Below, in pieces: positions 7,637-58,300 of a stretch of 64,000 bases of DNA. Below the pieces are notes generated by a model. The model ran no database searches. It had not been told where the DNA came from and saw nothing but the letters and a program-made list of their open reading frames with translations. The first letter of the stretch is position 1; every line of letters begins with the position of its first letter. This stretch comes from Liolophura sinensis (Eukaryota; Mollusca; Polyplacophora; Chitonida; Chitonidae): positions 2,611,501 to 2,675,500 of the forward strand of contig NC_088303.1 in assembly GCF_032854445.1 (NCBI RefSeq), read 5' to 3'. The position numbers and the translations under genes are program-made.

Positions 7637-7691
7637 CAGAATTGCATCTCTAATATTCTTTTTGATATCATCTATTTTCTGTCTTTTTTCA
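7637..7691 (-). CDS. GNAS: Gs-alpha exon 3 (start of the helical domain)
   Basis: Read on the minus strand, an acceptor ending tttgcag precedes one base that completes a split codon, then 18 codons, then the donor gtgagt. The exon is 55 nt and ends in phase 0. Joined to exon 2 it gives PDEKRQKIDDIKKN followed by IRDAIL, which matches the conserved linker-to-helical-domain start of animal Gs-alpha; the fly protein has a very similar stretch. The split codon closes exactly with exon 2. The next exon lies further toward position 1 or outside the window. Confidence 0.93.
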
Positions 7692-8638: not shown

Positions 8639-8711
8639 TCAGGACCGAAGCCATTGACGTGTAATATTCTCATCTGTTTAACAATCGTCGACTTGCCCGA
8701 CTCTCCGGCCC
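8639..8711 (-). CDS. GNAS: Gs-alpha exon 2 (P-loop)
   Basis: Minus strand, acceptor ttgttttag, donor gtgagt, 73 nt. The exon starts with the last two bases of a glycine codon and ends two bases into a codon. With exon 1 it encodes GAGESGKSTIVKQM then RILHVNGF. GxGESGKST is the G1/P-loop that binds the GTP phosphates, and the RILHVNGF ending is typical of the Gs class rather than Gi, Gq or G12. The product is the alpha subunit that couples receptors to adenylyl cyclase at the plasma membrane. The intron to exon 1 is 473 bp. Confidence 0.95.
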
Positions 8712-9184: not shown

Positions 9185-9314
9185 CCAATAGTAACAACCT
9201 ATGAGTTGCTCTGTACAATTGTTTGTCTTTTTGCAACTGTTTTTCGATCTTCTTATTTGCCTCTTTTTTCGCCTTATCATCTTCGTCCTCACGGCTCGTT
9301 CCCCAACACCCCAT
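9185..9314 (-). CDS. GNAS: Gs-alpha exon 1 (canonical N-terminus)
   Basis: The start codon lies in a strong context (gccATGG). The exon encodes 43 complete codons, beginning [10 protein letters not shown], continuing through [20 protein letters not shown] and ending LLL plus the first base of a glycine codon (phase 1), with donor gttagt. Gly2-Cys3 is the Gs palmitoylation site; the helix that follows contacts beta-gamma. It joins exon 2 in frame to give RLLLLGAGESGKST. The sequence around the start is richer in CpG than its surroundings, as expected for a broadly used promoter. Apparent open frames on either strand here are shadows. Confidence 0.95.
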
Positions 9315-14478: not shown

Positions 14479-14866
14479 CATGGTTAAATTTTTCCTTTGG
14501 CATTCCCCTTTCCTTAACTCGTAATTCTAACCACCATCGAATAAAGGAAACATTCTAGAGTACGCTTTTGAACAATAATTTAATGAAAAAACAACCAAAA
14601 TAAATAGATCAATAAATAAATAGATCAATAAATAAATAAATAAATAATAAACAAATAACGTCTTGCTCGAATACTGTATTGGTCATATCGCGATACAGTG
14701 CCTCTTCGTATGAGGCTATTGCCCGTGGCAATATAGCTAAAAAAAAGACATTAGACCAAATGTATATGCAACGATAAAGTAGCCTACATAAAGTTTTAAA
14801 ATCACACCTTGTCAATTTTGTAATTTGCATAAATGAGACATCACAATTCAGAGTAAGTGACGTAAG
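14479..14866. repeat. First copy of a recent 2-kb tandem duplication (unique part)
   Basis: The non-repetitive 388-bp left part of a block that recurs at 16476. By eye only one base differs (t at 14716, c in the second copy). The 73-residue open frame on the minus strand appears in both copies but is low-complexity and not a convincing gene. Confidence 0.9.
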
Positions 14867-17800
14867 TGATTTGTCATATAGCTGTGTAGTGAGATCGTTG
14901 GTTTGTCAGATATAGCTCAGTGTAGTAAGATCGGTGGTTTGTCTGATAGCTGTGTAGTGAGATCGTTGGTTTGTCAGATATAGCTCAGTGTAGTGAGATC
15001 AGTGATCTGTCATACAGCTGTGTAGTGAGATCGGTGGTTTGTCAGATATAGCTCGGTGTAGTGAGATCAGTGGTTTGTCAGATAGCTGTGTATTAAGGTC
15101 AGTGGTTTGTCAGATAACTCAGTGTAGTAAGATCGTTGGTTTGTCAGATATAGCTCGTTGTAGTGGTTTGTCAGATAGCTATGTAGTGAGGTCGGTGGTT
15201 TGTCAGATAGCTGTGTAGTGAGATCGGTGGTTTGTCAGACAGCTGTGTAGTGAGGCCGGTGGTTTGTCAGATAGCTGTTTAGTTAGGCCAGTGGTTTGTC
15301 AGATAGCTGTGTAGTGAGATCGGTGGTTTGTCGGATAGCTGTGTAGTGAGGTCGATGATGTGTCAGATATAGCTCAGTGTAGTAAGGTCAGTGGTTTGTC
15401 AGATAGCTGTGTAGTGAGGCCGGTGGTTTGTCAGATAGCTGTGTAGTGTGATCGGTGGTTTGTCAGATAGCTGTGTAGTGAGGCCGGTGGTTTGTCAGAT
15501 AGCTGTTTAGTTAGGCCAGTGGTTTGTCAGATAGCTGTGTAGTGAGATCGGTGGTTTGTCGGATAGCTGTGTAGTGAGGTCGATGATGTGTCAGATATAG
15601 CTCAGTGTAGTAAGGTCAGTGGTTTGTCAGATAGCTGTGTAGTGAGGCCGGTGGTTTGTCAGATAGCTGTGTAGTGTGATCGGTGGTTTGTCAGATAGCT
15701 GTGTAGTGAGGCCGGTGGTTTGTCAGATAGCTGTGTAGTGTGACAGGTGGTTTGTCAGACAGCTGTTTAGTTAGGTCAGTGGTTTGTCAGATAGTTGTAA
15801 AGTGAGGTCGGTGGTTTGTCAGATAGCTGTGTAGTGAGGTCGATGATGTGTCAGATATAGCTCAGTGTAGTTAGGTCAGTGGTTTGTCAGATAGCTGTGT
15901 AGTGAGGTCGGTGGTTTGTCAGATATAGCTCAGTGTAGTAAGGTCAGTGGCTTGTCAGATATAGCTCTGTGTACTAAGGCCGGTGGTTTGTCAAATTGCT
16001 TTGTAGTGAGGTCGGTAGTTTGTCAGTGAGCTGAGTAGTAAGATCGTTGGTTTGTCAGATATAGCTCAATGTAGTGAGATCGTTGATTTCTCTGATATAT
16101 CTCAGTGTAGTGAGGTCGGTGGTTTGTCAGATAGCTGTGCAGTGAGGTCGGTGGCTAGTCAGATAGCAATGTAGTGAGGTCGGTGGTTTGTCAGATAGCT
16201 GTGTAGAAAAATCGGTGATGTATCAGATAGGTGTGTAGTGAGGTTGATGGTTTGTCAGAGAGGTATGTAGTGAGATCGGTGATGTGTCAGATAGCTGTGT
16301 AGTTAGGTCAGTGGTTTGTCAGAGAGCTGTGTAGTGAGATCGGAATTGTGTCAGATATAGCTCAGTGTAGTGAGGTCAGTTATTTGTCAGACAGCTGTGC
16401 ATTGAGATCGTTGGTTTGTCAGATAGCTCAGTGTAGTAGGATCGATGGTTTGTCAGATACCTCAGGTGTCAGGTGCATGGTTAAATTTTTCCTTTGGCAT
16501 TCCCCTTTCCTTAACTCGTAATTCTAACCACCATCGAATAAAGGAAACATTCTAGAGTACGCTTTTGAACAATAATTTAATGAAAAAACAACCAAAATAA
16601 ATAGATCAATAAATAAATAGATCAATAAATAAATAAATAAATAATAAACAAATAACGTCTTGCTCGAATACTGTATTGGTCATATCGCGATACAGTGCCT
16701 CTTCGTATGAGGCCATTGCCCGTGGCAATATAGCTAAAAAAAAGACATTAGACCAAATGTATATGCAACGATAAAGTAGCCTACATAAAGTTTTAAAATC
16801 ACACCTTGTCAATTTTGTAATTTGCATAAATGAGACATCACAATTCAGAGTAAGTGACGTAAGTGATTTGTCATATAGCTGTGTAGTGAGATCGTTGGTT
16901 TGTCAGATATAGCTCAGTGTAGTAAGATCGGTGGTTTGTCTGATAGCTGTGTAGTGAGATCGTTGGTTTGTCAGATATAGCTCAGTGTAGTGAGATCAGT
17001 GATTTGTCATACAGCTGTGTAGTGAGGTCGGTGGTTTGTCAGATATAGCTCGGTGTAGTGAGATCAGTGGTTTGTCAGATAGCTGTGTATTAAGGTCAGT
17101 GGTTTGTCAGATAACTCAGTGTAGTAAGATAGCTGTGGTTTGTCAGATAGCTATGTAGTGAGGCCGGTGGTTTGTCAGATAGCTGTGTAGTGTGATAGGT
17201 GGTTTGTCAGACAGCTGTTTAGTTAGGTGGTTTGTCAGATACCTGTGTAGTGAGATCGGTGGTTTGTCAGATAACTGTGTAGTGAGGTCGGTGATGTATA
17301 AGAAAGCTGTGTAGTGGGGTAGGTAGTTTGTCAGAGAGCTGTGTAGTGAGTTCCGTGGGTTGTCAGAGAGTTGTGTAGTGAGATCGGTGGTTTGTCAGAT
17401 AGCTGTGTAGTGAGGTTGGTGATGTGTTAGATATCTGTGTAGTGAGGTTGGTGGTTTGTCAGAGAGGTATGCAGTGACTTCGATGATGTGTCAGATAGCT
17501 GTGTAGTGAGGTCGGTTGATTGTCAGGTAGCAGTGTAGTGAGATAGGTGTGTCAGATATAGCTCAGTGTTGTGAGGTCAGTTATTTGTCAGACAGCTGTG
17601 CATTGAGATCGTTGGTTTGTCAGATAGCTCAGTGTAGTGGGATCGACGGTGGGTCAGATAGCTGTGTAGTGAGATCAGTGGTTTGTCAGATAACTGTGTA
17701 GTGAGGTCGGTGATGTGTGAGAAAGCTGTGTAGTGAGGTCGGTGGTTTGTCAGAGAGCTGTGTAGTGAGTTCGGTGGTTTGTCAGAGAGCTGTGTAGTGA

Positions 17801-20556
17801 GATCGGTGGTTTGTCAGATAGCTGTGTAGTGAGGTCAGTGATGTGTCAGATATAGCTCATTGTGGTAAGGTCGGTGGTTTGTCACATAGCTGTGTAGTGA
17901 GGTCGGTAGTTTGTTAGATAGCTGTGTAGTGAGGTCGGTGGTTTGTCAGATATAGCTCAGTGTAGTGAGGTCGGTGGTTTGTCAGATATAGCTCAGTGTA
18001 GTGAGGTCGGTGGTTTGTCAGATAGATGTGTAGTGAGGTCGGTGGTTTGTCTGATAGCTGTGTAGTGAGGTCGGTGATGTGTTAGATATAGCTCAGTGTG
18101 GTAAGGTCAGTGGTTTGTTAGATAGCTGTGTAGTGAGGTCGGTGATGTGTCAGATATAGCTCAGTGTAGTGAGGTCGGTGGTTTGTCAGATAGCTGTGTA
18201 GTGAGGTTGGTGGTTTGTCAGATAGATGTGTAGTAAGGTCGGTGGTTTGTCTGATAGCTGTGTAGTGAGGTCGGTGATGTGTTAGATATAGCTCAGTGTA
18301 GTAAGGTCAGTGGTTTGTTAGATAGCTGTGTAGTGAGGTCGGTGATGTGTCAGATATAGCTCAGTGTAGTGAGGTCGGTGGTTTGTCAGATAGCTGTGTA
18401 GTGAGGTTGGTGGTTTGTCAGATAGATGTGTAGTAAGGTCGGTGGTTTGTCTGATAGCTGTGTAGTGAGGTCGGTGATGTGTTAGATATAGCTCAGTGTA
18501 GTAAGGTCAGTGGTTTGTTAGATAGCTGTGTAGTGAGGTCGGTGATGTGTCAGATATAGCTCAGTGTAGTGAGGTCGGTGGTTTGTCAGATAGCTGTGTA
18601 GTGAGGTTGGTGGTTTGTCAGATAGATGTGTAGTAAGGTCGGTGGTTTGTCTGATAGCTGTGTAGTGAGGTCGGTGATGTGTTAGATATAGCTCAGTGTA
18701 GTAAGGTCAGTGGTTTGTTAGATAGCTGTGTAGTGAGGTCGGTGATGTGTCAGATATAGCTCATTGTGGTAAAGTCGGTGGTTTGTCAGATAGATGTGTG
18801 GTAAGGTCAGTGGTTTGTCAGGCAGTCGTGCAGTGAGGTCGGTAGTTTGTCAGACAATTGTGTAGTGAGGTCAGTGATGTGTCAGATAGCTGTGTAATGA
18901 TGTCGGTGGTTTGTCAGATAGCTTAGTGTACTGAGATGGGTAGTTTGTCAGATATAGCTCATTGTAGTGAGATCGGTGGTTTATCGGATAGCTGCATGGT
19001 GAGGTTCGTGGTTTGTCAGATTGATGGTGATGTCAGTGTTTTGTGAGATAGCTGGTGAGTTCGATGGTTTGTCAGACAACACGTGAGGTCAATTGTTTCT
19101 CCCGAGAAATGTTTGTGTCATGAAGTTTGTCAAATGCCTATATATATGTCGGTGATTTGTGAGGTAGTAGCTGAGGTCGGAGGTTTCTCCCGGGGTAATT
19201 GTCCGAACCTCATGTCAGAAAGTTTGCCAGATAGCTGCACAGTGAGATCGGTGGTTCGTCAGACAGCTTGTAAAGTCAATGATTTCTCTCGAGCTATCAC
19301 GCGAAACTTCTGTCAGAAAGTTTATCAAATAGCTGTATATTTACGTAAGTGGTTTGTCAGGTAGCTGGCGAGGTCGGTGTTTTGTCAGGTATGTCATGAG
19401 GTCACTGGTTTCTCCCGGGCTATCTCGGGAAATTTGTCAGACGGCGGTAAAGTGAATTCGGTGGTTTGTCAGATAGTTGGTGAGGTGGGTGGTTTGTCTG
19501 ATAGTTGATGAGGTAGGTGGTTTGTCAGATAGTTGATGAGGTGGGTGGTTTGTCAGATAGTTGATGAGATGGGTGGTTTGTCAGACAGTTGGTGAGGTGG
19601 GTGGTTTGTCAGATAGTTGGTGAGGTAGGTGGTTTGTCTGATAGTTGGTGAGGTAGGTGGTTTGTCAGATAGTTGGTGAGGTGGGTGGTTTGTCAGACAG
19701 TTGGTGAGGTGGGTGGTTTGTCAGATAGTTGGTGAGGTGGGTGGTTTGTCAGGTAACTGGTGAGATCGGCGGTTTTTCACATAGCTGGTGAGGTCGGAGG
19801 TTTGCCAGATAGCTTGTGAGGTCGGTGGTTAGTCAGATAGGTGGTGAGGTCGATTGTTTATCAGATAACTGGTGAGATTGGCGGTTTTTCACATAGCTGT
19901 TGAGGTCAGGGGTTTGCCAGATAGCTGGTTAGGTCGGTGGTTAGTCAGATAACTGGTGAGGTCGATTGTTAATCAGATAACTAGTGAGACCAGCGGTTTT
20001 TCACATAACTGGTGAGGTGCGAGGTTTGCCAGATACAGTAGCTGGTTAGGTCGGTGGTTAGTCAGATAGGTGGTGAGGTCGATTGCTTATCAGATAACTG
20101 GTGAGGTGGGTGGTTTGTCAGATAACTGGTGAGGTGGGTGGTTTGTCGGATAACTGGTGAGGTCGGTTGTTTGTCAGATAACTGGTGAGGTTGATGGTTA
20201 GTCAGGTAACTGGTGAGGTCGGTGATTAGTAAGATAGCTGTTGAGGTCGGTGGTTTGTCAGATAACCGGTGAGGTCGGTGGTTAGTCAGATAGCTGGTGA
20301 GGTCGGTGGTTTGTCAGATAACTGGTGAGGTCGGTGGTTTGTTAGATAACTGGTGAGGTCGGTGGTTTGTCAGATAACTGGTGAGGTCGGTGGTTTGTCA
20401 GATAACTGGTGAGGTCGGTGGTTTGTTAGATAACTGGTGAGGCCGGTGGTTTGTCAGATAACTGGTGAGGCCGGTGGTTTATCAGATAACTGGTGAGGTC
20501 GGGTGTTTGTCAGATAACTGGTGAGGTCGGTGGTTTGTCAGATAGCAGGGGAGGTT
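14866..20556. repeat. 5.7-kb minisatellite, unit 28-36 bp
   Basis: A very long array built on gtttgtcagatagctgtg and tagtgaggtcggtg. Three zones are visible: mixed 32- and 36-bp units from 14866 to about 19070, a diverged zone with tttctcccgag near 19080-19440, and 28-bp units (gataactggtgaggtcggtg) from about 19460 to the end. It is interrupted at 16476-16863 by the second copy of a unique block. Between about 18080 and 18740 a 200-bp higher-order unit repeats almost perfectly. If the distal Gs exon is used, the array lies in its first intron. Confidence 0.95.
16476..16863. repeat. Second copy of the 2-kb tandem duplication (unique part)
   Basis: Almost identical to 14479-14866, with a constant offset of 1997 bp. 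The minisatellite that follows also matches the first copy for a few hundred bases before diverging through unit gains and losses. Confidence 0.9.
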
Positions 20557-20936
20557 ATTGGGTTATTGGGTTGTTTATCCTGAAATATGACGCGATTTCC
20601 ATCCGTAATCTGAAACATTCTTATAAGATCGAAAGAAACCCCAATGAAATTCATACCGTCAAGTAATAAATGGAAATATCTCGGAAGACCGCCACACTAG
20701 TTGTTGTCTAAAATAAGGAATGTCACAAATGCATCTTCCGTCATGTACAAAAAATGTTACGAGACAGTAAACCGTATAAAGAAATAAGGAATTCCGATCA
20801 GACAATTATCGCAGTGTTGTGCCGCGATACCATTGTAGTATGGGCGATGCATGCATGACCCTATCAGGCTTCCATCGCATATCTACACCTACTTTCTAGA
20901 GCACATTTGAAGTGATGCTGCTTTAAATCGTCTTAC

Positions 20937-21067
20937 CCAAAATGGAGCAGCCTGTAAGTCTGTTTGTAATTTTCCCGGTCCTTCTCCAGCTGCCTTTCGA
21001 TCTCCTTAGATTTCTTCTTCTGTGTTGAATCCTCAAGTTTTCCAGATCTGCCGCTAAAGCAACCCAT
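20937..21067 (-). CDS. Distal first exon with a Gs-alpha-type N-terminus
   Basis: The minus-strand ATG has G at -3 and +4 and an in-frame TGA 9 nt upstream. It encodes MGCFSGRSGKLEDSTQ followed by KKKSKEIERQLEKDRENYKQ and TYRLLHFG, with donor gtaaga. Length and layout match the canonical exon 1 (9185-9314): MGC palmitoylation start, a charged stretch, then [KE]IE[KR]QL[QE]KD and YRLL. So this is a second Gs-alpha N-terminus, 11.6 kb upstream on the same strand. The oddity is that it is 131 nt, not 130, so it ends in phase 2 and would shift the frame if joined to exon 2 (8639-8711). Possibilities: a separate paralogue with its own exon 2, a one-base decay or sequence error in the T run before the donor, or a non-productive first exon. 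Confidence 0.7.
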
Positions 21068-22102
21068 CTCTTCTCAATACACCAGATATAGGTAAAGAGC
21101 GCAACAGAATGGAGCAACTTGGGGCGGCTACACAGATTACAAGATGTATAGGTAAGATGGGCGTCTTTTTGTTTTGTGACACCTCTGTAAACGTGCAAGC
21201 CTTTGGCTCCGTGCGCCACGATTTTATGGGGCAGATACTTATAAGGTTCACTTTGTTTTAGACGTATTTTATGGAATAGCCCTTGCTATTATGCGCCCAC
21301 TTTTGTCACAGTGGAAACACGGACTGGCTTTGCTCGGGTAGACAAACTTATAAAGCCTGGACCAGTATGAGAGACAACTAATTACTCGCATTCTACTTGT
21401 CCATTTGTGCCCACACACACTACCAACATCATCGACCACGCCTTTGTAATTCTGCCTGCGGTATCTGGGGCAACATCCAGCCAGCAGGCTGTCGGAATTC
21501 TCACAGCCCGCCACGCAAGGCAGCAATGGGTCACTGCTTTACGAACAGAGTTCAGATTTATAGCTAATGGCCTTATTACAAAGGTTATAAGCGGCTTAAA
21601 CCGTGCATTATCCGAAAAGCTTCTAAGAAACACAAGAATAACTTTAAATCCACTAAAAACAATAGATTTTCTGCTCTAGAGCGCGTTTCTCGCGGGCCGC
21701 CAGTGCCTCCCGGTACAGTGATGACATCAAAATATGCAGGTTTTAACAAGAGAATTTGTATCTAAGTGATGTCCATTTCGAGATGGATCCTAGCTATAGA
21801 CAGGCAGACACACTGAAGTATCAGTTTGAATCAGTAGTGGACAGTGTTCCAAGTTGTGACACTGACAGCACTGGCCAGACTTTATGTTCTGAATTTCCAT
21901 GCGATGAATTTTATATGCTTGTTGAGGCATTTTCAGCCCACTGGCTATACGGACTAGTATAAACTTTGGCTTTGTACTGTGTTATATTTCCTGCGTTTAG
22001 CTCAAAATTTAATATTTATTTAATAATTTTTTACCTCTTGACACTTCACGTGCAGTAAATCCCATTCTTTTCACTGACGCTAACTGTTATTTCTGAATTA
22101 TC
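21068..22102. other. No gene recognised; possible promoter of the distal Gs-like exon
   Basis: The sequence upstream of the distal first exon on the minus strand is less AT-rich than its surroundings near 21400-21720. Open frames on both strands here (up to 90 codons) show no recognisable family. Confidence 0.3.
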
Positions 22103-22114
22103 TCTTAATCGGGC

Positions 22115-22385
22115 GGGGGCCGTGGCTCAGTCCGTTAGCACGCTAGCGCAGCGTAATGACCCAGGAGTCTCTTACCAGTTCGGTCGCTGTGCGTTCAAGT
22201 CCCGCTCATGCTGCCTTCCTCTCCGGCCGTGCGTGGGAAGGTCTGCCAGCAACCTGTGGATGGTCGTGGTTTCCCCCCGGGCTCTGCCTGGTTTCCTCCC
22301 ACCTCCCACCATTACGCTGGCCGCCGTTGTATAAGTGAAATATTCTTGAGTACGGCGTAAAACACCAATCAAATAAATAAATAAA
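22115..22385 (+). mobile_element. Full-length tRNA-derived SINE (family A)
   Basis: The head carries an A-box-like ccgtggctcagtccgttagc and a B-box-like gcgttcaagtcccg. The middle has tggtcgtggtttcccccc and the tail gtgaaatattcttgagtacg ending in (AAAT)n. The 12-bp sequence tcttaatcgggc flanks the element at 22103-22114 and 22386-22397, a clear target-site duplication. The layout recalls V-SINE/RUDI elements of molluscs, but I cannot confirm the family name. Positive orientation. Confidence 0.92.
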
Positions 22386-22917
22386 TCTTAATCGGGCAAT
22401 GCAGATGTGAGGTGTGTATACACGGAGAGACATGCCTACCAACGCAGGGAGGTACCTTTTCCAGCGCAATGGCGATTCGCGTCCAAGCCGGATCGTGACT
22501 GTTGTTCTCTTACCCAAATCTATGTGTTCAAACAGACATTCGTATACCAGCCGTCAACCTATAAGGACGTTCCAGGTCAATAATCGCAAGGCCAAAACGG
22601 CGTATAACACAAATAACCAAAGAACTAAGAAAGTATGGAAATAGGACGGAATCATGCAAAGAGAAGCAGTCAACAGTTTTCAGTGATGCTGGAAAGACGC
22701 AATTCAATACGATCTAATTCAACACGATGAATATACAGACCCTAGCCGTATACGTTACGTACAATTGCTATGTTACCAGTTTGCCCACAAGTCTCATCGC
22801 ACAGCAGGCTACACGTCTGGCACGAAATACTTTAGGATGGGGCTGGACTTATATATATATTTATTTAAGTGACTGCTATTTAGCAGTTTAAGAAAACTGG
22901 TGTCGTCGGAGTAAGAC

Positions 22918-26601: not shown

Positions 26602-26880
26602 ATATTTTAGCCACAATCCCAGAAGTTTAATATTATTTTTCGCCTCAAAAATAATATAAGCCGACACGAATTGATGCATAATCTCTGTCTACTATGTGTA
26701 CAAAAATGTTTTATTCTATGCTAATATGAGAATTACATAAGAGGCTCTGATGGTAGTGATAAAAAACCCTGTGCCTGGTGCTTCTCCAGTGATCTTCATT
26801 CAGAGAGAGGTCAAATTACCTCGCGCATAACGGAGTTCTCGGTTTCGCATGGAACAAAAAGTGTAGCGGGGATTCCGGCT

Positions 26881-27914
26881 ATGCCTCGTGCTACTCCAAT
26901 GCCAATACGCCGGAGAGTGATTGCCCTCCATCAAGAAGGCTACAAACAGTCCGATGTTGCCGATTTTGTAGGCATATCGCAAAGTACAGTCAGCAAAATC
27001 ATCAGACGTCATCGAGACGTGGGTCATTTGCGGCCACGTCAAACTCCAGGACGACCACGACTGACTACGAGACGGGATGACCGCCGACTGCTCAATCTCT
27101 CTCGCACAAACCGGAAAATGTCTGCGAACCATCTTCGCCGTTTGTGGCGTAGGCATTACGGAATCAATGTCTCCCGAACAACGGTGAATCGCAGATTACT
27201 TCAGCATGGTTATCGAGCAAGACGTATGACCAAATGTCCCCGCCTAACCGCTCAACATAGAGTCCAAAGGTTTCGCTGGGCTAGGGAGCAGACAATTGCA
27301 GTTAGGGCATTGGCGACATGTGCTCTTCACGAATGAGAGTCGCTTCTTCCTGAAACCTGTGGACGGAAGGCAAAGGGTTCGTCGTTTGCGAGGAGAAAGC
27401 CTTCGAGATAACTGTGTGCAGGAAAACAATCAAGGGGGTGGCGGTTCAGTAATGGTTTGGGCCGGTATTCACTATGGTGGAAAAACGCCGTTGGTGGTGC
27501 CCGACGAAAACGTCAACGCCGTCGTGTACATTGATATCCATGAAAACCATTTCCTTCCATACGCACGAAGGGTTTATGGAGACAATTTTCGTTTGCAAGA
27601 CGACAACGCTACACCACACAGGGCCGCTGCAACACGAGAATTTCTTCGGGCACAAGGGGTGGAGCAGTTACCTTGGCCATCGTGTTCCCCTGATATGAAC
27701 CCAATAGAACATGCCTGGGACAAGTTAGGGCGAGCCATCAACGCACGTGACAATATTGCTGAAAATCTGCAAGAACTGGCACAGGCTCTGATCAATGAGT
27801 GGAACGTTCTGCCCATTGAATTTTAACAATTTTAACATTAACAATCTGGTCGACAGCATGCAACGACGTCTTGACGCATTGATTCGTGTCAGGCGTGGTC
27901 ATACGAGATATTAA
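26881..27914 (+). pseudogene. Tc1-type transposase, broken
   Basis: The first part (26881 to about 27290) encodes a paired-like DNA-binding region: a helix-turn-helix around VADFVGISQSTVSKIIRRH, the linker TPGRPR (the GRPR-like motif of Tc1 transposases), then a second helical region ending RFRWARE. A one-base frameshift near 27285-27300 moves into the catalytic domain, which reads HWRHVLFTNESRF, then VMVWAGI, LQDDNATPHRA and SPDMNPIEHAWD. The family's DD34E triad shows a second Asp (QDDN) and Glu (IEHAW), but the first Asp, normally in FTDES, is Asn. The frame stops at 27826 after LPIEF. Downstream bases still encode NLVDSMQRRLDALIRVRRGH to a stop at 27914, displaced by about 13 extra bases carrying stops. 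Three independent lesions make it non-autonomous. Confidence 0.93.
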
Positions 27915-28206: not shown

Positions 28207-28233
28207 TTTATTCCAACTTTATGGTCAACAGTG
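28207..28233 (-). repeat. Right terminal inverted repeat of the Tc1-type element
   Basis: Reverse complement of 26575-26601, followed by the duplicated TA and then directly by minisatellite sequence. Confidence 0.95.
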
Positions 28234-30298
28234 TATTTCCCACTCTCACTACTTGTGGGACCTTCATGTATTCCCCAGTCTCACTTCTTGTGGGACCTTC
28301 ATGTATTCCCCAGTCTCACTTCTTGTGTGACCGTCATGCATTCCCCAGTCTCACTACTTGTGTGACCTTCATATATTCCCCAGTCTCACTACTTGTGTGA
28401 CCTTCATGTATTTCCCACTCTCACTACTTGTGGGACCTTCATGTATTCCCCAGACTCACTACTTGTGGGACGTTCATGTATGTTCCATTCTCACTGCTTG
28501 TGTGACCTTCATATATTCACTACTCTCACTGCTTGTGTGACCTTCATGTATTTCCCACTCTCACAGATTGTGTGACTTTCATGTATTCCCCAGTCTCACT
28601 GCTTGTGGGACCTTCATTTATTCCCCAGTCTCACTACTTGTGTGACCTTCATGTATTTCCCACTCTCACTACTTGTGTGACCTTCATGTATTTCCCACTC
28701 TCACTACTTGTGGGGCCTTCATGCATTCCCCAGTCTCACTACTTGTGTGACCTTCATGCATTCCCCAGTCTCACTACTTGTGGGACCTTCATGTATGTTC
28801 CATTCTCACTGCTTGTGTGACCTTCATGCATTCCCCAGTTTCACTACTTGTGTGACCTTCATGTATGTTCCATTCTCACTGCTTGTGGGACCTTCATGTA
28901 TTTCCCACTCTCACTACTTGTGTGACCTTCATGTATTTCCCACTCTCACTACTTGTGGGGCCTTCATGCATTCCCCAGTCTCACTACTTGTGTGACCTTC
29001 ATGCATTCCCCATTCTCACTACTTGTGGGACGTTCATGTATGTTCCATTCTCACTGCTTGTGTGACCTTCATGCATTCCCCAGTCTCACTACTTGTGGGA
29101 CGTTCATGTATGTTCCATTCTCACTGCTTGTGGGACCTTCATGTATTCCCCAGTCTCACTACTTGTGTGACCTTCATGCATTCCCCAGTCTCACTACTTG
29201 TGTGACCTTCATGTATGTTCCATTCTCACAGCTTGTGTGACCTTCATGCATTCCCCAGTCTCACTACTTGTGTGACCTTCATGTATTCCCCAGTCTCACT
29301 ACTTGTGGGACCTTCATGTATTCCCCATTCTCACTGCTTGTGAGACCTTTATGTATACCTTAGTCTCTCTACTTGTGGGACCTTCATGCATTCCCCAGTC
29401 TCACTACTTGTGTGACCTTCATGCATTCCCCAGTCTCACTACTTGTGTGACCTTCATGTATTCCCCAGTCTCACTGCTTGTGGGACCTTCATGTATTCCC
29501 CAGTCTCACTACTTGTGTGACCTTCATGTATTCCCCAGTCTCACTGCTTGTGTGACCTTCATGTATTCCCCAGTCTCACTGCTTGTGTGACCTTCATGCA
29601 TTCCCCAGTCTCACTACTTGTGTGACCTTCATGCATTCCCCAGTCTCACTACTTGTGTGACCTTCATGTATGTTCCATTCTCACTGCTTGTGTGACCTTC
29701 ATGCATTCCCCAGTCTCACTACTTGTGTGACCTTCATGTATTCCCCAGTCTCACTTCTTGTGAGACCTTTATGTATACCTTAGTCTCTCTACTTGTGGGA
29801 CCTTCAAGCATTCCCCAGTCTCACTACTTGTGTGACCTTCATGCATTCCCCAGTCTCACTACTTGTGTGACCTTCATGTATGTTCCATTTTCACTGCTTG
29901 TGTGACCTTCATGCATTCCCCAGTTTCACTACTTGTGTGACCTTCATGCATTCCCCAGTCTCACTACTTGAGTGACCTTCATGCATTCCCCAGTCTCACT
30001 ACTTGTGTGACCTTCATGTATTCCCCATTCTCACTGCTTGTGAGACCTTCATGTATTCCTCAGTCTCACTACTTGTGTGACCTTCATGTATGTTCCATTC
30101 TCACTGCTTGTGGGACCTTCATGCATTCCCCAGTCTCACTACTTGTGGGACCTTCATGCATTCCCCAGTCTCAGTGCTTGTGTGACCTTCATGCATTCCC
30201 GGTCTCACTACTTGTGGGACCTTCATGCATTCCCCAGTCTCAGTGCTTGTGTGACCTTCATGTATTCCCCAGTCTCACTACTTGTGGGACCTCCATGC
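28234..30298. repeat. Minisatellite, unit 35 bp, about 59 copies
   Basis: The unit is cattccccagtctcactact plus tgtgtgaccttcatg. Four main versions occur, differing at the first half (tattcccc, cattcccc, tatttccca, tatgttcca) and at tgtgtg versus tgtggg. Blocks of seven units (245 bp; compare 28711 and 28956) and of twelve units (420 bp; compare 29341 and 29761) recur, so copies spread as blocks. The unit has no stop codon in any plus-strand frame, which explains the many 60-120 codon open frames. Confidence 0.95.
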
Positions 30299-41324: not shown

Positions 41325-44300
41325 GTAAGTTTTTGTTTTCTCATATTCTCCTCATTCGGAAAGTTTTTGTTTTCTCATATTTCCCTTATTCGGAAAGTTT
41401 TTGTTTTCTCATATTCCCCCCATTCGATAAGTATTTTTCCTACACGTTTTCTCCATTTATTATCACAAGCAACAAAATCTTTTGTTTTCTGAAAATGCCG
41501 CTTTTGTTGAATTCTAGTTACGGAAGTATTGTACATTGGCGAAGTAAATGAAAATCAAAAGTGAAAATAAAAACTTGATTGTGACCGTGTATTTAGGTGT
41601 GTATTCCATTTATGGCATTGTTATAACTCTTATTTAAATAAATTACACTTTAAAACCGCCACACTGTAACTCCTAATTAAATAATTATTTCAATAAGCGC
41701 TACAATGACAAGCCTTTTTGAAATGTTACACTTACAATTATTGAAATATTATTACTATGATTATGTAAACAATTACCTACATTAAATCATTCCATGATGT
41801 CATAACAAACAGTGTCACGAAAGGCATAACTTAATCAGTTTTTGCATGCATAACTTTCACTTGATTTCACTTTCCCTGAATGTATTGATTGGATGTATTT
41901 GTGAGTGTGTCGCTGAATGTATTGATGTATTTTTTTTATTACCCTGCGCTTTATTTATTAGCCCCAAACCGGTACCTGGGAGATTATATGTTTGTTAAAA
42001 ATGTCTCATCGTGCTGAACTTAAATTTTGTTCCTGACATGTCACCGTGACATGTTATAGATCAAGTTCGAGTTTTTCGGACCACAGTGACTATGCAGTTT
42101 TGGGAAACATAATGGCCGTTATTGCCCACTCCCTACTGCGTCCAATTTGAACGGCGTTATGTTGTCATTTTGTCCAAACAGTTTTCCCGACGATGCATTA
42201 AACTGAATTTGACTGGATTGCAACTTGCATGACATTACCATAAGGAGTTCAAGTTTTCCTGTCCTATCCTAATGTTGGACAAGATTATAATTGCTTTGGT
42301 TCAATTGGTTTTCCTAATCGGCTTTAAAAATGGGTTATCGTAACGAATTCAAACAAGATATGACGTTTCAACATATCTAGTTTCAACTCATTTTCGAGTT
42401 TCGGACCCCTTCGTCCAAGTTGAACGCAGTTATGGCCGTTTTTGTCCAAACACTTTACGGGACATGTTTTTCAAAACGATTCATCCTATTGCTGTCTTTG
42501 ATCGTATAAGTTACCAATGGTTTCAGGTTAGGCAGGTTTGAGTAACAGGGAGAATTCAGTATTATGTCAAACGTGAAAGACAAGAGATAAGGATAAAGGA
42601 AGCTGGAATAAACTTCAAAGTCATAAGAATGAACAACCGAGCTACAGTCTCCGCCTCCCGCACCTACCTCACCCAAGTTAACCACCCACCTATCTGAACA
42701 TCCCATCCAGTCAACCAAATAACCCACACATGAACATTACCCCCGACCCACACATCCCTTCGCTCCGTTAATTAATATAAAAAAAAGTTGCTAAGATTAG
42801 AAATTACATCCGCGGGTATTTCAATAAGCCATTTTATGTGTCATGCCAGAATTTATTGATTGGCCTTATTGAAATGGATGTTTCAGTTAGCGACGCAAAT
42901 GTAGCCTAACCCATACTGATATATTAGCTCTGTAAGAGTTACCCTTACAACGCTTATTGGAATAATTGTTTCATTATGGGCTACAATGCAACGCTAAATG
43001 AAATAGTTGTTTGATAATTGAGGAATATTTTATATTTCTTAATAACCCCTTAAATGACATATTTTCCTTGAATGGTCGGAAATATCCGGAAATGACGTCA
43101 TGGGTAAACATACTATAGGAACGCGGGACCAGCTTGACGTCTCCAGTTGAGGCTCATCCCCCGACAAACCGTTGAGGTCATCATAGCAGGCTACTTAATT
43201 TCCGGACTGACCAGAGCCTTAGGAAAACAGTACACGATAGCTATCTTTTTTATGCCCCAAGAAGAAATCCGAGAAGCTCATTTGTACTTTTATGTATTAG
43301 GCCACATCATATACTCCGAACAGGGAAAAAGAAAACCCGTGCGTTCCAAGTATGTTTTAATGGGCATATACAACCGACAGTAGACTAGAAATAGACGGAA
43401 CGAAAAATGTTGATATACCACATATGTTGAGTTTCAATGCACCTGAAATTAAAAGGATGATATTGCTAGGTGGATGTGGCCGGCTTGATCCTCCGCTTAT
43501 TACAGGCATACTGACGGTATATGAGTCGAGGCTATGTTTTCAAACAGAAAAGGCAGAAATAACATGTCAAGAATTCCAGGCCAATATAAATGTGAGAAGC
43601 CCAAAAACTTCACGGTAACATACATGTAACATTGTTTAACAGGACAGAACTTTTACGCCCCTCAAAGAGACGTACGAAAATTCGGTTTTATATTTTTTGC
43701 GCAGAATTAAAAGCCTTCATAACGCTAAATTATAAAATCGGTTGTAAGCATCACACTGAGAATTATGGTAACCATGACACCACGAGCTTTTCTTCCCAGA
43801 TCTAAATCATATGTGTATATATATACATATAAGTGACACAGTTACAGGATGCCCGCTTATAGCATTTAAAAGTCTTTATATTTAGGCATTTTTGTACACA
43901 TATATGTAAAGGCCCCTTCTGCCCTCTCTTGCATTGTACAAGCATATGGTATAATAGACGAATGCTGATCAAGTTTACGTATAGTCAGGGCATATAAATA
44001 CCACATAAATACCGTTTGTACACGGTGAAGTGGAGCTCGGTGTTTAATATATAGCCTCACGTCCGACGATGAATTTAATTCTCACACCTGACACTGAATT
44101 GAGGTCTCACACCCGGCAATGAATTTAAGTTGCACACTCGACAATTAATTTAAGACTAATATGTGACAGTTCATTTAAGCCTCACAGCTAACAATGAATT
44201 TAGGTCTTACGCCCGACAAATGAATTTAATCCTTACACCCGACGATGAATTTGAGAATCACACCCGACAATGAATTTAAGCCTTACACCTGACACTGATT

Positions 44301-47300
44301 CTAAAACTCACACTCGACTTTGACTCTAAGAGCCACACCGGACAATGAATTTAAGCCTTACACCCGACACTAAATATAAGCTTCACACCCGACAACGAAT
44401 TTAAGCCTTACACCCGACACTAAATGTAAGCCTCGCATCCGAAACTGAATACAAGCCTCACATCCGACAATGAATTTCAGCCTCACAACCGACAATGAAT
44501 GTAAGTCTTACACCCAACATTGAATTTAAGCCTAACACACGATATGTTAAGGCTCACTCCCGACATTGAATTTAAACCTCACATCCGACATCGAATTTAA
44601 GTCTCAAACCCAACAATGAATTTAACCCCCACAGACGACATTAAATTTAAGCCTAACATCAAACAACGAATTTAAACCTCCCACCTGACAATAAATTTAA
44701 GCCTTACACCCGAAATTGAATTTAAGACCCACATCTGAGAGATGATTTAAGCATCACACCTGACTGTGAATTTAAGCCTCACATCCGACAATAAATTTAA
44801 GCCTCACATCCGACAATAAATTTACGCCTTACACCAGACAGTGACTCTAAGTTTCACACCCGACTCTGACTGTAAGTCTGACATCCGACAGTGAATACAA
44901 GCTTGACACCCTACACTGAATACAAGTCTGACGTCCGACACTGAATACAAGTCTGACATCCGACACTGAATACAAGTCTGACATCTGATACTGAATACAA
45001 GCCTGACATCCGACACTGAATACAAGTCTGACATCCGACACTGAATACAAGTCTGACATCTGACACTGAATACAAGTCTGACATCCGACACTGAATACAA
45101 GTCTGACATCCGACACTGAACACAAGCATGATATCCGACACTGAATACAAGTCTGACATCCGACACTGAACACAAGCATGATATCCGACACTGAATACAA
45201 GTGTAACATCTGACACTGAATACAAGTCTGACATCCGACACTGAACACAAGCATGATATCCGACACTGAATACAAGTGTAACATCTGACACTGAATACAA
45301 GTCTGACATCCGACACTGAACACAAGCATGATATCCGACACTGAATACAAGTGTAACATCTGACACTGAATACAAGTGTAACATCTGACACTGAATACAA
45401 GTGTAACATCTGACACTGAATACAAGTCTGACATCCGACAGTGAATACAAGCATGATATCCGACACTGAATACAAGTGTAACATCTGACACTGAATACAA
45501 GTCTGACATCCAACACTGAACACAAGCATGATATCCGACACTGAATACAAGTGTAACATCTGACACTGATTACAAGTCTGACATCCGACACTGAATACAA
45601 GTGTAACATCTGACACTGAATACAAGTCTGATATCCGACACTGAATACAAGTGTAACATCTGACACTGAATACAAGTGTAACATCTGACACTGAATACAA
45701 GTGTAACATCTGACACTGAATACAAGTGTGGCGAAGACCATACGGATTTTTATGTTATATATTTCGATTAAACCGATCACTCCTTTGTGTAACTTTTTGT
45801 GGATAGATTTAACGCTAAAAGCAGGAGATATTATTTCTGGTTAGGCTCATTCATATTATGGTCAGATATTATGTTTGCCGAAGCTCTTACTTGTGTTGAT
45901 GAATTTTAGAATCAAATGAGGTTAAGGCCTATAGCAGAGGTAAGGGTCTGCGGTTGCATACATGTCGCTGTTAACATCATCTATATGTGGCGGAATTAGG
46001 CACCAAGTTTAAATACATCTGATGGTTCCTCGCGTAGTATTTTATGCTTTCTTACACTTCAATACTTTTTAAAGCTATCAAACGCTTCAAATCTCTTAAT
46101 TTTTCATAGCGATGGTCCGTTTTGACTGTGTTAATGTGATTGTATGTTAAATGTCATGACAACACATTATTCCGAGTAATTTTAGACCTGTAACGTCTAA
46201 TAAATTGCAATTAACATCACTGCATTTTTTTTTATCTAATTCTGCTTAAGCCATGGTGCTAGGGGACGTGTAAAAGGTTACAGTTTACATGAACAGTCAG
46301 ATTATAACCCGAACTGAGGTAAATTGACAAGAGGCCGTCTTTTTCACCGGTAATATGTGATAATTTGCCAGCTATCACACCGGTATCACACTGTCGTCGC
46401 TGCTCAGGTTTTACCTTAAGCACTGTAAGTCTTTAATTATATTTACAGGAACATCTAGCGACCTTTACCGTTGTCCAAATATCAGTGGGGGAATAATGAG
46501 GGCGTTTAATGAGAAGTGCTACCGATTTGTTTCCAACGGCAAGACCTGGGATGAAGCCCAATGCGATTGTCAAAGAACGGGAGGTAATCTCGTCCACATC
46601 AAGGACCGTGCAACACAGAACTTCATTTATAACAGTATCAAAAACGACCTCGGCTGGAGGGTGAACGGGATGTGGATTGGTGCGCATGACCGGACCATGT
46701 CAAATAGTTATGAGTGGGTTAATGGTAAGTGCATGCGTGTTTCCGAACACCTTAGCCTTTGTAGGCAGCGAGAAACTTACAGATTCACTGGACCTGTGTT
46801 ACTCGTGTGGCTTACAACAACCACTTGAGTTTAGTTATCATTCGGCTGACAAAATTTTTCAATCCTGAAATCCGTTTACCGCTGATTAAGATGCATCTTG
46901 ACGTCAGGGAGTTTGTCAGGTATACCATGCACGTGTCAATTTCATACATTCGGTCACTAATGTCCGTTGGCATTTGCTTCCGTATGTGGCGTCATTTAAT
47001 GTCCTCGAATGAAATCCCTATAGAAATTGAATCCCCATGGGATGACCCGTGGCCTAGAGGCCTTTGCCTTTCAATCGCCAAGGTGCATGAGGTATGAGCG
47101 GTAGATCCAGGATCAATCCTGGATCAAGTCACAACTAAGACGCTTGGTGTTCAGCATGAAGGGGATAGCGCAACGACTGGTTGTCCCGCATCGGTATAAT
47201 TGCTCGGACAGTGCGGCTTACTTGTCTTGGTAAGGCGCCTCAGTGAAGCAGCTCTAGATAAAAGAGCGGTGGAAATCCGCCCTGCAACAAGAAGGCACAT

Positions 47301-50300
47301 TACATGTACTCTAAGGATTCCTTCGTCGTCATATGACAGAAAAATTGGTGAGTACAACGTTAAACCCCAAGCACTCCCTCACTCACTCACTCACTCACTC
47401 ACTCAAGCCATGCCGAATGTTTGCTAATAGGGTGTGCATATCTGTCTGTCACACGTGGGAAAGTTTGCCCTTTGCGCGGTTTCCCCGACTACTCATTGTA
47501 CAAGTGAAAAAGTCTTGAGTATAGCGTTACCGAGCCATCAAAAAATGGAGAAAAATAAATAAGAATTTTTCATTAATATGACGGTCAAATTTGTATGTAT
47601 AAGAAGCCCGGCTGCACGGTAAACCACGTTTTCCTCCCCACCAGGTATCTGGTATCGGTTGACCGAGAACTGGATTACAACACCTGACCTCATTGTTAAA
47701 GGGCAAGTCAGTCGCCGCGAACCAGCACTTTCAACCACCAGGGCCGACGATTGATCTTGTGTTCCATGTATATAAAATATGAAAGCTAGGAGATAGTATA
47801 TGTTTAATTGTTTGCCGAAATAAGCTCTGTGTAGAGTCTTGGGACATAAAAGAAGCTGCAGGCCCTTCGTGGTTTCCTTCCACCAAAATGCTAACCCCCA
47901 TCGTTCAAGTGAAATATTCTTTAGTACGGCGTGAACCACGAATCAAATAAGTAAATAAATTTCTGAGCCAAGTAAATTTCAAACGTCTTACTATTTACCC
48001 AGGTGACCGACAAAGTCGAGGGACTCCCGTGACGTGGAACTATTGGGCCCCCGGTCAGCCATCATGTGGGCTTTGGTTTTGTAGCGAGTTTTGCAGCCAA
48101 ATGCGATTAGACGACGGAGGACGGTGGCACGATTACCGCTGTGGACTATGGTTTACGACTTACTATTACTGCTGCATGTACGGTAAGTATAACTTGGCAA
48201 GATGGGAGCCTGTAAAGCAAAGATGCTTTCAATCTTTTCACTCCCTGGCCGAAAGTAGCCTGAGGGTATCGGAATAACGTCCGATGTTAATCTGTCAATT
48301 TCTTTGTGAAAACAAAACTATCTCTTGGGAGGGTGTTCACCACGTTCACCAAACTTATACCACACATGCGCTATGGCATTGGGAAGTTCATTCATTCTCG
48401 GTGGACAATTTGTTCATGTATTTTGTAGCGGTTGTTAGATCCTGTTTGTGTCACTCAACGCCACTAGTTACTACTACAAAAACGAGTATGTCTAAGTGAT
48501 TCCATCAAACACCTTCACCATATAAGCTTCTGAAGTTTTACTATAACAATGAGTGTTATTCTCTTGTCAGTAAATATAGATAGAGTGAAGGCCTACCGGG
48601 TCTCCGGCAGTCCAAGCACTTCATAACTGTGCGTAACTCCGCTTAGCCAGGGGCCAGGTTCTGTATATTCATTGCGCTGAATTAAATAGGCACGTTGGAT
48701 ACATGAACAGTTGCAATCCAAGCGCAACTGAGAGACACATACTTTGATTATGGACACCTAATAAACTGGCATGGTGCACGATATGGATACTGATTTAATT
48801 CATTGGCGTTTCCATCATCTTTGAAAACTGTTGACTGCTTCTCCTTTCATGAGTCCCAATTCCGTACATTATATACTTTCTTAGCTCTTTGGTGGTTTGT
48901 TTTGAACGCTGGTTTGGAAATTGTTCTTTCCATTTTTTATCCGGGACGTCCAGTTTAGTTGACAGATGATATATGAATGTCTGCTTCGACGCCTAGGTTT
49001 TGCAAACCAACTTTATTATGCACATATCTTTCAGATATGCTTCCTAGGGCAACAAAACCAACAACAACAGCAGTGACAACAACAACAACAAAACCAACAA
49101 CTACAACGACAACAAGAACAACAACATCAATGACAACGAAAACAACAATGAAGACAACAGGAAGGACAAAAGCGATGACAACAGTAAATTCCGGTAAATC
49201 CACTTTCTCGTACTTCAGGGGTATAATTAAGATGAGGTAAACCGGGGAAAAGTTACTGAGATATCATCATATTGGGGACATGTACAAAGCGTGTCGCTTT
49301 GTATTCGGTGGCATGCATAGTTAGTCAGTTTTGATGCGGCCACCATGTTAGAATGTGACATTTATTATGTAGTGTGTGTAAGCAACAGCGTCACTCATCT
49401 GTACATTTGAACAGCTGTGAAAGATGGCAAAACACCTTCAGGAAAATTTTATATTCAGATTATTCACGGCCAAAATCTGTACGTCGTTTTATACACCTAC
49501 ATGTGTATATGCAAATGAGTTTGCAAAAGCAAACGCTTCCAAACTCTCAGTTGTATTTAAGGATTCACTTTCTTTTCTTCCATCACAGAAACAACGGTAA
49601 GTGACCTTTACCGTTGTCCAAATATCAGCGGGGGAATAATGATGGCATTTAGAAATAAGTGCTACCGATTTGTTTCCAACGGCAAGACCTGGGATGAAGC
49701 CCAATACGATTGTCAAAGAAGGGGAGGTAATCTTGTCCACATCAAGAACCTGGCAACGCAAAACTTCATTTATAACAGTATCAAACACGACCTCGGCTGG
49801 AGGGTGAACGGGATGTGGATTGGTGCGCATAACCGGACGGAGTCCAAACGTTACGAGTGGGTTAATGGTGGGTATAAGTCTGCTTGAGAAACTCCCAGAG
49901 TCAATGGGTCTGGGTTCATGAGGTTTACAAGAACCACTTGAGATGTCCACGGTGAAATGTTCGAATGGCACACTTATAATTCCGCTGAAGCAGACACAAT
50001 TTTTTAATCCTGAAATCTGTTTACCAATGATTGGGATGTTCTGGATGACGGACATGTCGTCCGAGAATGTATCGGGTATACCACGCAGGTTTCCGTTGCT
50101 TCCACTCAGTAATTAATATCCGTTGTACATTTCCCATTTTCTTCTGTATTTGGCGTAAATTGAAAGTGCACCAATGAAATCCCTAAAGAACTTGAACTCA
50201 CGTGCCACCAGTTGGGATGACCCTCTTCGCCATGAGAGCTTTAGGTACGGTACAAGCGTGACAGTTTCATTGACTTCAAGCAGAAGTGTTGAAACTGTTT

Positions 50301-55306: not shown

Positions 55307-58300
55307 GTAGAGTTAAATGTTTTGTGTTACGGTACGTAGATGAAATAACCTAGTTTTCGCGTCAGCTTCAAAACTACTCACACTGGCCAGGTCTACACGG
55401 CAGTAACCCTGTGATAACCGTACGCCATGTTTATGCTATGTACGCTTAAAGTCTTTTTCAATCGCTATAACAACAATAGGGCTGTGGTTATTTAAACACC
55501 TGCATGGTGCACTAAAATTTAAAAAGTAATCTGAAGTAATCAACTGAATACCAATTACGGTGTAGAGTTGCTCCCACTCTCACACGGTGTTGTACAAACC
55601 GTGTTTTAGTTCTATAAGCGTTTGAGAAATTTTGACCAGAGATTAATTTCAAATTTAATGACCAGTCTACGAAGCTATTTCATCCTGTTTTCAAAATCAC
55701 GGCGAGGTCCAGACGTCGATGAATGGAGGCGCCGTTTCGAAACCAGTTGTACTATAATGGTTTTTTTATAGATGACCATCGCCGTACCACCGGTGAATGT
55801 AACTACAGTCATATAAGGGTACAATGTGATGTGATAAAAGATGTATATTAGTTTATTTATTTGTTTGATTGGTGTTTTACGCCGTACTCAAGAATATTTC
55901 ACTTATACGACAGCGGCCAGCATTATGGTGGGTGGAAACCGGGCACAGCCCGGGGGAAACCCACAACCATCCGCAGGTTGCTGACAAACCTTCCCACGTA
56001 TGGCCGGAGAGGAAGCCAGCATGAGCTGGACTTGAACTCACAGCGACTGCATTGGTGAGAGGCTCCTGGGTCATTATGCTGCGCTAGCGCGCTAACCGAC
56101 TGAGCCACGGAGGCCCCTGTATATTAGGGAGTATACAGTTAAAATACCAGTCAAATAAATAATTAGGCTAAGTGTAACAAAAAGTATTGTGTTGATAAAG
56201 TATGTTGATATGCATATCATTAGCTTAAAAACCTACTTCCCTCTTCTCACAGGTACTAAGTTCCCGCCACTCAAACCGGGCTCTTTACGACTATACAGCA
56301 TGCGGTTCTGTCCTTTTGCCCAAAGAACTCGTTTATTATTGGAGCACAAAAATATCCCGTAAGTTAATACGTGGAATGCTCAGGTCAAGCTTGCAGATAT
56401 TTCACTAAGTGATTTCAGCAGTGGCTTTATGCTGTTTTGAGGATATATATTTGAAGAAAGACGGTACACATTCATCAAGTTAACGGAAGTGGTTCATCCG
56501 TGAGGCAGTTTCAGTTATAATTGGGGGCTTCCCTGGCCGAGGTGGTTAGCATGCCAGCGCGGCGCTATAACTCAGAGCCTCTTACCAGTACGATCGCTGC
56601 GAGTTCATGGTGGATCATGGTGGCTTCCTCACCGGCCGTACGTGACAGCAGCCTGTGCATGGTCGTGGGTTTCCTTCGGGCTCTGCCCGGTTTCATCCCA
56701 CCATAAAGCTGGCCGCCATCGTAATAAGATAAGTCAAATATTCTTGAGTGCGACATAAAAGACCAATCAAATAAATAAATTAATCGGAAATGGCATTTCC
56801 GTAGATCATAAATATCATACTTACAGACATGTTGTGTGGTCCCGTTAGACGGTATGGCATGAACGGAAAACGTTGCCCGTCATATTACACACAGACGTGT
56901 TGTGTGGTCCCGTTAGACGGTATGTCCTGAACGGAAAACGTTGCCCGCTATATTACACACAGATATGTTGTGTGGTCCCGTTAGACGGTATGTCCTGAAT
57001 GGAAAACGTTTCCCGTCATATTACACACAGACATGTTGTGTGGTCCCGTCAGACGGTATGTCCTGAACGGAAAACGTTTCCCGTCATATTACACACAGAC
57101 ATGTTGTGTGGTCCCGTCAGACGGTATGTCCTGAATGGAAAACGTTGCCCGTCATATTACACACAGACATGTTGTGTGGCCCCGTTAGACGGTATGTCCT
57201 GAACGGAAAACGTTTCCCGTCATATTACACACAGACATGTTGTGTGGTCCCGTCAGATGGTATGTCCTGAATGGAAAACGTTGCCCGTCATATTACACTC
57301 AGACATGTTGTGTGGCCCCGTTAGACGGTATGTCCTGAACGGAAAACGTTTCCCGTCATATTACACACAGACATGTTGTGTGGTCCCGTCAGACGGTATG
57401 TCCTGAATGGAAAACGTTGCCCGTCATATTACACACAGACATGTTGTGTGGCCCCGTTAGACGGTATGTCCTGAACGGAAAACGTTTCCCGTCATATTAC
57501 ACACAGACATGTTGTGTGGTCCCGTCAGACGGTATGTCCTGAATGGAAAACGTTGCCCGTCATATTACACACAGACATGTTGTGTGGCCCTGTTAGACGG
57601 TATGTCCTGAACGGAAAACGTTGCCCGCTATATTACACACAGACATGTTGTGTGGCCCCGTTAGACGGTATGTCCTGAATGGAAAACGTTGCCCGTCATA
57701 TTACACACAGACATGTTGTGTGGCCCCGTTAGACGGTATGTCCTGAACGGAAAACGTTGCCCGCTATATTACACACAGATATTTTGTGTGGTCCCGTTAG
57801 ACGGTATGTCCTGAATGAAAAACGTTGCCCGTCACATTACACACAGACATGTTGTGTGGCCCCGTTAGACTGTATGTCCTGAACGGAAAACGTTGCCCGC
57901 TATATTACACACAGACATGTTGTGTGGCCCCGTTAGACGGTATGTCCTGAACGGAAAACGTTGCCCGTCATATTACACACAGACATGTTGTGTGGCCCCG
58001 TTAGACGGTATGTCCTGAACGGAAAACGTTGCCCGCTATATTACACACAGATATGTTGTGTGGTCCCGTTAGACGGTATGTCCTGAATGGAAAACGTTGC
58101 CCGTCATATTACACACAGACATGTTGTGTGGCCCCGTTAGACGGTATGTCCTGAACGGAAAACGTTGCCCGCTATATTGCACACAGACATGTTGTGTGGT
58201 CCCGTTAGACAGTATGTCCTGAAAGGAAAACGTTGCCCGCTATATTGCACACAGACATGTTGTGTGGTCCCGTTAGACGGTATGTCCTGAACGGAAAACG

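Follow-up and report, generated by a model that had tools for sequence, protein, structure and literature searches.

Gene content of the locus

The window, that is, the whole stretch of 64,000 nucleotides of Liolophura sinensis DNA that we analysed (contig NC_088303.1, positions 2,611,501 to 2,675,500), carries on its minus strand the 5' part of a Gs-alpha gene, exons 1 to 3, and upstream of it an exon that resembles Gs-alpha exon 1. The features on which the analysis turns are as follows (positions are those of the window, and a slash marks the exon-intron border).

7637..7691, minus strand: Gs-alpha exon 3 (EKRQKIDDIKKNIRDAIL)
8639..8711, minus strand: Gs-alpha exon 2 (P-loop), with entry in phase 1; the window yielded no other exon 2
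9185..9314, minus strand: canonical Gs-alpha exon 1, 130 nt, 43 codons plus G, with the donor TGG/gttagt
20931..20936, minus strand: donor gtaaga of the upstream exon, which scores higher against the consensus than the donor of canonical exon 1
20937..20947, minus strand: last 11 bases of the upstream exon, where, on direct reading, LLHF replaces the LLLLG strand and the phase shifts by one base
20937..21067, minus strand: upstream Gs-alpha-like first exon, 131 nt, with the peptide MGCFSGRSGKLEDSTQKKKSKEIERQLEKDRENYKQTYRLLHF followed by GG before the donor
21074..21076, minus strand: in-frame stop TGA, the third codon 5' of the upstream-exon ATG (reads stop-E-E-M)

In the Protein Data Bank, canonical exon 1 matches ordinary solved Gs-alpha chains with E about 5e-14, and one solved chain that holds the exon 1 stretch twice matches it at 6e-20. 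Full-length human and fly Gs queries found both first exons, exon 2 and exon 3 in the window and nothing else, apart from chance matches with E from 0.8 to 3.8, one for the human query and two for the fly query. As these queries found no further Gs exon after exon 3 within the 64 kb, the remainder of the gene is presumably located beyond base 1. A second exon 2 was not found anywhere in the window, the interval between the two first exons included; the best match of the exon-2 peptide elsewhere (E 0.016) has no P-loop, lies on the opposite strand and was rejected.

A 5.7-kb minisatellite (14866..20555; 28/32-nt units, richer in G than in C on the plus strand) takes up about half of the DNA between the two first exons and ends about 380 bases from the upstream-exon donor. 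Other minisatellites lie at 1809-2774 (34/46-nt units), 28232-30297 (35-nt), 44056-45727 (25-nt) and 56823-60273 (68-nt). About 1 kb upstream of the exon, at 22103-22397, is a SINE-like insert of about 270 bases flanked by the 12-base direct repeat TCTTAATCGGGC, which we presume to resemble mollusc SINEs. The window also contains an apparently broken Tc1/mariner-type transposase (26725-27826) in two overlapping plus-strand frames, one with HTH domains and the other with DDE_3, as well as tandem C-type lectin exons on the plus strand (46364-49887, with Lectin_C at 46364-46828 and 49561-49887) and an exon for a glutathione S-transferase N-terminal domain (60422-60736). Rfam and tRNA scans of the window gave no match.

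The upstream exon resembles Gs-alpha exon 1

The upstream exon begins on the minus strand with an ATG at 21067 and an MGC start, and runs for 131 nt to the donor TGG/gtaaga at 20937/20936. It shares with the canonical exon a layout of 43 codons plus a split glycine, aligned without a gap. The two ATGs are 11.75 kb apart, and 11.6 kb, the distance given in a preliminary description of this DNA, separates the upstream donor from the canonical ATG. The sequence and the gap-free alignment bear that description out in its ATG, its 5' in-frame stop, its MGC start, and the common strand and exon-1 layout. On a consensus matrix, the donor ranks in the top 2.7% of the 8,740 GT sites scored; the donors of canonical exon 1, exon 2 and exon 3 rank in the top 11.8%, 7.9% and 0.1%, respectively. 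The 500 bases 5' of the upstream ATG have a CpG observed/expected ratio of 0.70 and a GC content of 0.47 (window median ratio 0.78; canonical 0.90), which by CpG does not suggest a promoter.

The likeness extends to the protein. The two peptides are identical at 17 of 43 residues, or at 17 of 41 over the codons that align without a gap, and tblastn of the 64-kb window pairs the two exons with E about 1e-7. In a six-frame scan of all 43-codon stretches of the window the pair scores 91, whereas the best place overlapping neither exon scores 19 (among the top six places per query), and none of 5,000 shuffles of the peptide came up to the observed 94 (maximum 49). In the Protein Data Bank, the best matches of the upstream peptide are Gs-alpha chains, weak at E 7e-4, with chains named Gq or Gt3 close behind at E about 0.003 (among the best 60 of 128 distinct sequences with E up to 10); solved chains bearing those names are often chimeric constructs. 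Scores of the peptide against control N-termini lie at 84-92 for human Gs, Golf and fly Gs and at 38-48 for Gi1, Go, Gq and G13. A Pfam search with the 43-residue peptides returned no family for the upstream exon and one unrelated family, below the cut-off, for the canonical one. In a plasmid collection tblastn gave no match with E up to 1, and among 600 pattern stretches in viral contigs there was no relative with E up to 1e-3; animal genes are not to be expected in either collection. We read the upstream exon as a Gs-class N-terminus, nearer to Gs than to Gi, Go, Gq or G13; the second Gs-alpha N-terminus first proposed is borne out.

Its scores against the canonical exon (91), human Gs (84) and fly Gs (92) are nearly equal, as either an ancient origin or accelerated change along this lineage would give. 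Like other first exons of the Gs class it combines the MGC lipid-anchor start with an alpha-N helix: structure prediction gave a single helix over residues 10-42 (mean pLDDT 81, pTM 0.46), although this prediction, made from a two-row alignment, informs little beyond helix content.

An old duplicate held at the protein level

Upstream and canonical exons differ at 56 of the first 123 bases. The differences are fewest at second codon positions (13 of 41, against 21 and 22 at the others), and with pS 0.81 (22.5 synonymous sites) and pN 0.37 the synonymous sites are saturated. When 56 random changes were placed on the canonical exon, with all differences on one branch and multiple hits ignored, none of 20,000 trials kept the ATG, the open frame and the observed similarity. 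A stricter version (4,000 trials) passed in no case at 45 and at 56 changes, in 0.3% at 38, 1.2% at 35, 4.9% at 30, 10.5% at 25, 16.8% at 20 and 23% at 15. Total neutrality is thus rejected, and a late phase of relaxed selection is compatible with these results, the test being weak at few changes. A recent segmental copy was likewise rejected, as the 2.2-kb stretches round both exons share no match better than E 0.17; that match falls inside the exons, and the flanks are without convincing DNA similarity. On the sequence evidence, Gs-alpha exon 1 was duplicated long ago, and the upstream copy was kept as protein for much of its life.

These data bear directly on the possibility that the exon is a relic, be it exon 1 of a tandem Gs paralogue that once existed or an abandoned alternative exon, which once coded and only recently began to decay as a pseudo-exon. 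Up to about 30 neutral changes in a late phase would be compatible with the drift test, the protein is further from human Gs than the canonical exon is (84 against 161), the 3' end has shifted frame and lost LLLLG, and the 5.7-kb minisatellite adjoins the exon. Nevertheless, the exon has kept its ATG, its open frame, its MGC start and a good donor while synonymous divergence reached saturation, and no remnant of further paralogue exons turned up in the window. We regard a relic as rather unlikely.

The preliminary description had left a choice between an independently evolved alternative N-terminus and a decayed copy. A copy decayed from birth finds no support, given a protein kept at saturated synonymous divergence and a donor above the canonical one. 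A living alternative exon is only a candidate, because the literal splice to exon 2 is non-productive.

A one-base offset at the 3' end

The canonical exon, with its final TTG G, agrees with the phase-1 entry into exon 2, whereas the upstream exon ends in TTT GG, in phase 2; the one-base difference noticed at the outset (131 against 130 nt) is real in this sequence. Spliced literally to exon 2, the upstream exon reads ...LLHFGGRRVGQVDDC-stop, a product of 54 residues with no GTPase domain, as the stop falls 11 codons after codon 43. Where a Gs exon 1 has the LLLLG strand that leads into GAGESGKS and ends in phase 1, the upstream exon has LLHF and phase 2. All eight other sequences compared end in LLL, and to our knowledge the LLLLG beta-1 strand is invariant more widely. 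On these two points the exon is classed as an exon-1 duplicate with a lesion, and not as a proven working Gs exon 1.

Other donors that might restore the phase were sought among the eight GT sites of the upstream exon and the next 120 bases, and none was suitable: the phase-1 GT directly after the ATG would discard the helix, and the remaining phase-1 GTs lie beyond an in-frame TAA.

The phase shift and the loss of LLLLG both fall in the last 11 bases, so that one inserted base would, to judge from the letters, explain both. The suspicion voiced earlier about the cattttggg stretch was well placed, since the change of phase and the break in LLLLG are both there. We take the extra base, in an exon that is otherwise intact, to be either a base error or an insertion that is recent or allelic; as it stands in the sequence, it would be compatible with a base-calling error, an allele or a fixed lesion.

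Two readings would accept the offset as it is. In the first, the exon would be used non-productively: the out-of-frame splice would lead to nonsense-mediated decay, or to a 54-residue lipidated alpha-N peptide competing for beta-gamma, and the choice of promoter would tune Gs dosage. The early stop in the literal splice and the good donor suit such a role, and mammalian GNAS offers a precedent in first exons that do not encode Gs, such as A/B. Yet selection for decay alone would not keep the protein sequence of an alpha-N helix, and a free peptide would be without the switch regions, which complete beta-gamma binding. We consider this use improbable.

In the second, the exon would belong to another transcript with a partner of its own, possibly read in a different frame, hence the different end phase. 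Such a frame (here frame B; the frame of the peptide above is frame A) is indeed open for 116 codons through the upstream exon (20937-21285), in phase with Gs exon 2, and runs on into exon 2 in the Gs frame. It contains no ATG in those 116 codons, frame A outscores it in the similarity between the two exons (90 against 67), and the search of the window for another Gs exon 2 found none. We take the similarity in frame B to be a shadow of that in frame A, and such a transcript seems to us very improbable indeed.

A proposed alternative first exon with a differently charged N-terminus

The reading that we prefer, at about even confidence, is that of an alternative first exon whose Gs-alpha N-terminus carries a different charge, and which a recent or allelic lesion, or a base error, now interrupts. 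Exon 1 would have been duplicated on the same strand, and the upstream copy, probably with a promoter of its own, would have acted as an alternative start, joined by splicing to the shared exon 2. The resulting protein would be a complete Gs-alpha carrying another version of the alpha-N helix, in which the MGC lipid-anchor start and the helix are retained, the membrane-proximal stretch would be basic instead of acidic and the hinge between alpha-N and beta-1 would be changed. The expected effect would be tighter and more persistent binding to the plasma membrane, together with a shifted receptor preference. The present copy, as read, would give a short alpha-N peptide only.

The charge difference is confined to the start of the protein. 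Residues 2-21 carry a net charge of +4 in the upstream exon, against -1 in the canonical exon and in human and fly Gs; taken across the entire exon, the charges are similar (upstream +4, canonical +3, human +4, fly +5), so that the membrane argument rests on the first 20 residues. In the hinge, where Gs touches receptor loop 2, the upstream exon has the changes R38K, A39Q and H41Y (human numbering), the last of which retains an aromatic character. A simulation study places H41 in the receptor loop 2 pocket (PMC3691126). For XLalphas, an N-terminus enriched in basic residues is described, along with its staying at the plasma membrane on activation, when Gs-alpha leaves (PMC9294334). Against a working exon count the out-of-frame literal splice to exon 2 and the histidine in the beta-1 strand, which is unusual.

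We put forward more tentatively, and short of even confidence, the stronger claim that this is a working, long-conserved invertebrate alternative first exon of Gs, in which a basic helix, with stronger membrane retention and a shift in receptor choice, would take the place of the whole alpha-N helix. Such an exon would be the counterpart of vertebrate XLalphas, having arisen either independently or earlier than the vertebrates, and the one-base offset would be an allele or a base error.

Relation to known alternative first exons

The upstream exon departs from canonical Gs exon 1 (GNAS, GNAL and fly Gs) in H41Y, in LLHF for LLLL, in being one base longer and in a charge of +4 for -1 at residues 2-21; it shares with them the MGC, the alpha-N helix, the KEIERQLEKDR..YKQTYRLL core and the 43 codons plus split glycine. 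UGT1 and the clustered protocadherins are familiar cases in which first exons have been duplicated, each with its own promoter, and join common downstream exons; here, in contrast, there are only two first exons, and use of the upstream one is putative.

The closest known parallels are the alternative first exons of vertebrate GNAS and GNAL. An upstream alternative XL-exon is reported in all vertebrate GNAS investigated, with a homologous exon in GNAL (PMC5896119). It resembles the 3' part of exon 1, which it replaces before the common exon 2 (PMC5896119; PMC9294334). The upstream exon of Liolophura is placed in the same way, upstream of the Gs-alpha gene and on the same strand, with a 3' end resembling exon 1; the basic N-terminus is a further likeness, and its open frame B recalls the overlapping frames of the mammalian XL exon. 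It differs in that XL has a long N-terminus, whereas this exon has the canonical length plus one base and no long in-frame extension, being closed by the TGA three codons before its ATG. That stop excludes an XL-type extension of the frame, unless there is an acceptor within the few bases that separate it from the ATG. The phase, too, is unmatched here.

The account that traces the XL-exon describes it as apparently absent from other deuterostomes and leaves the timing of its origin unresolved, and its main text contains no word beginning with 'mollus' (PMC5896119). Among the matches listed from the open-licence literature, none concerned an invertebrate alternative first exon of Gs. Alternative first exons of Gs-alpha have thus been described for vertebrates, with an origin that the tracing paper does not date (PMC5896119). 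If the upstream exon of Liolophura is what we propose, the swapping of the alpha-N helix of Gs would not be a vertebrate speciality, and this gene would offer a natural, same-length helix swap with which to test the role of the N-terminus in membrane residence and receptor choice.
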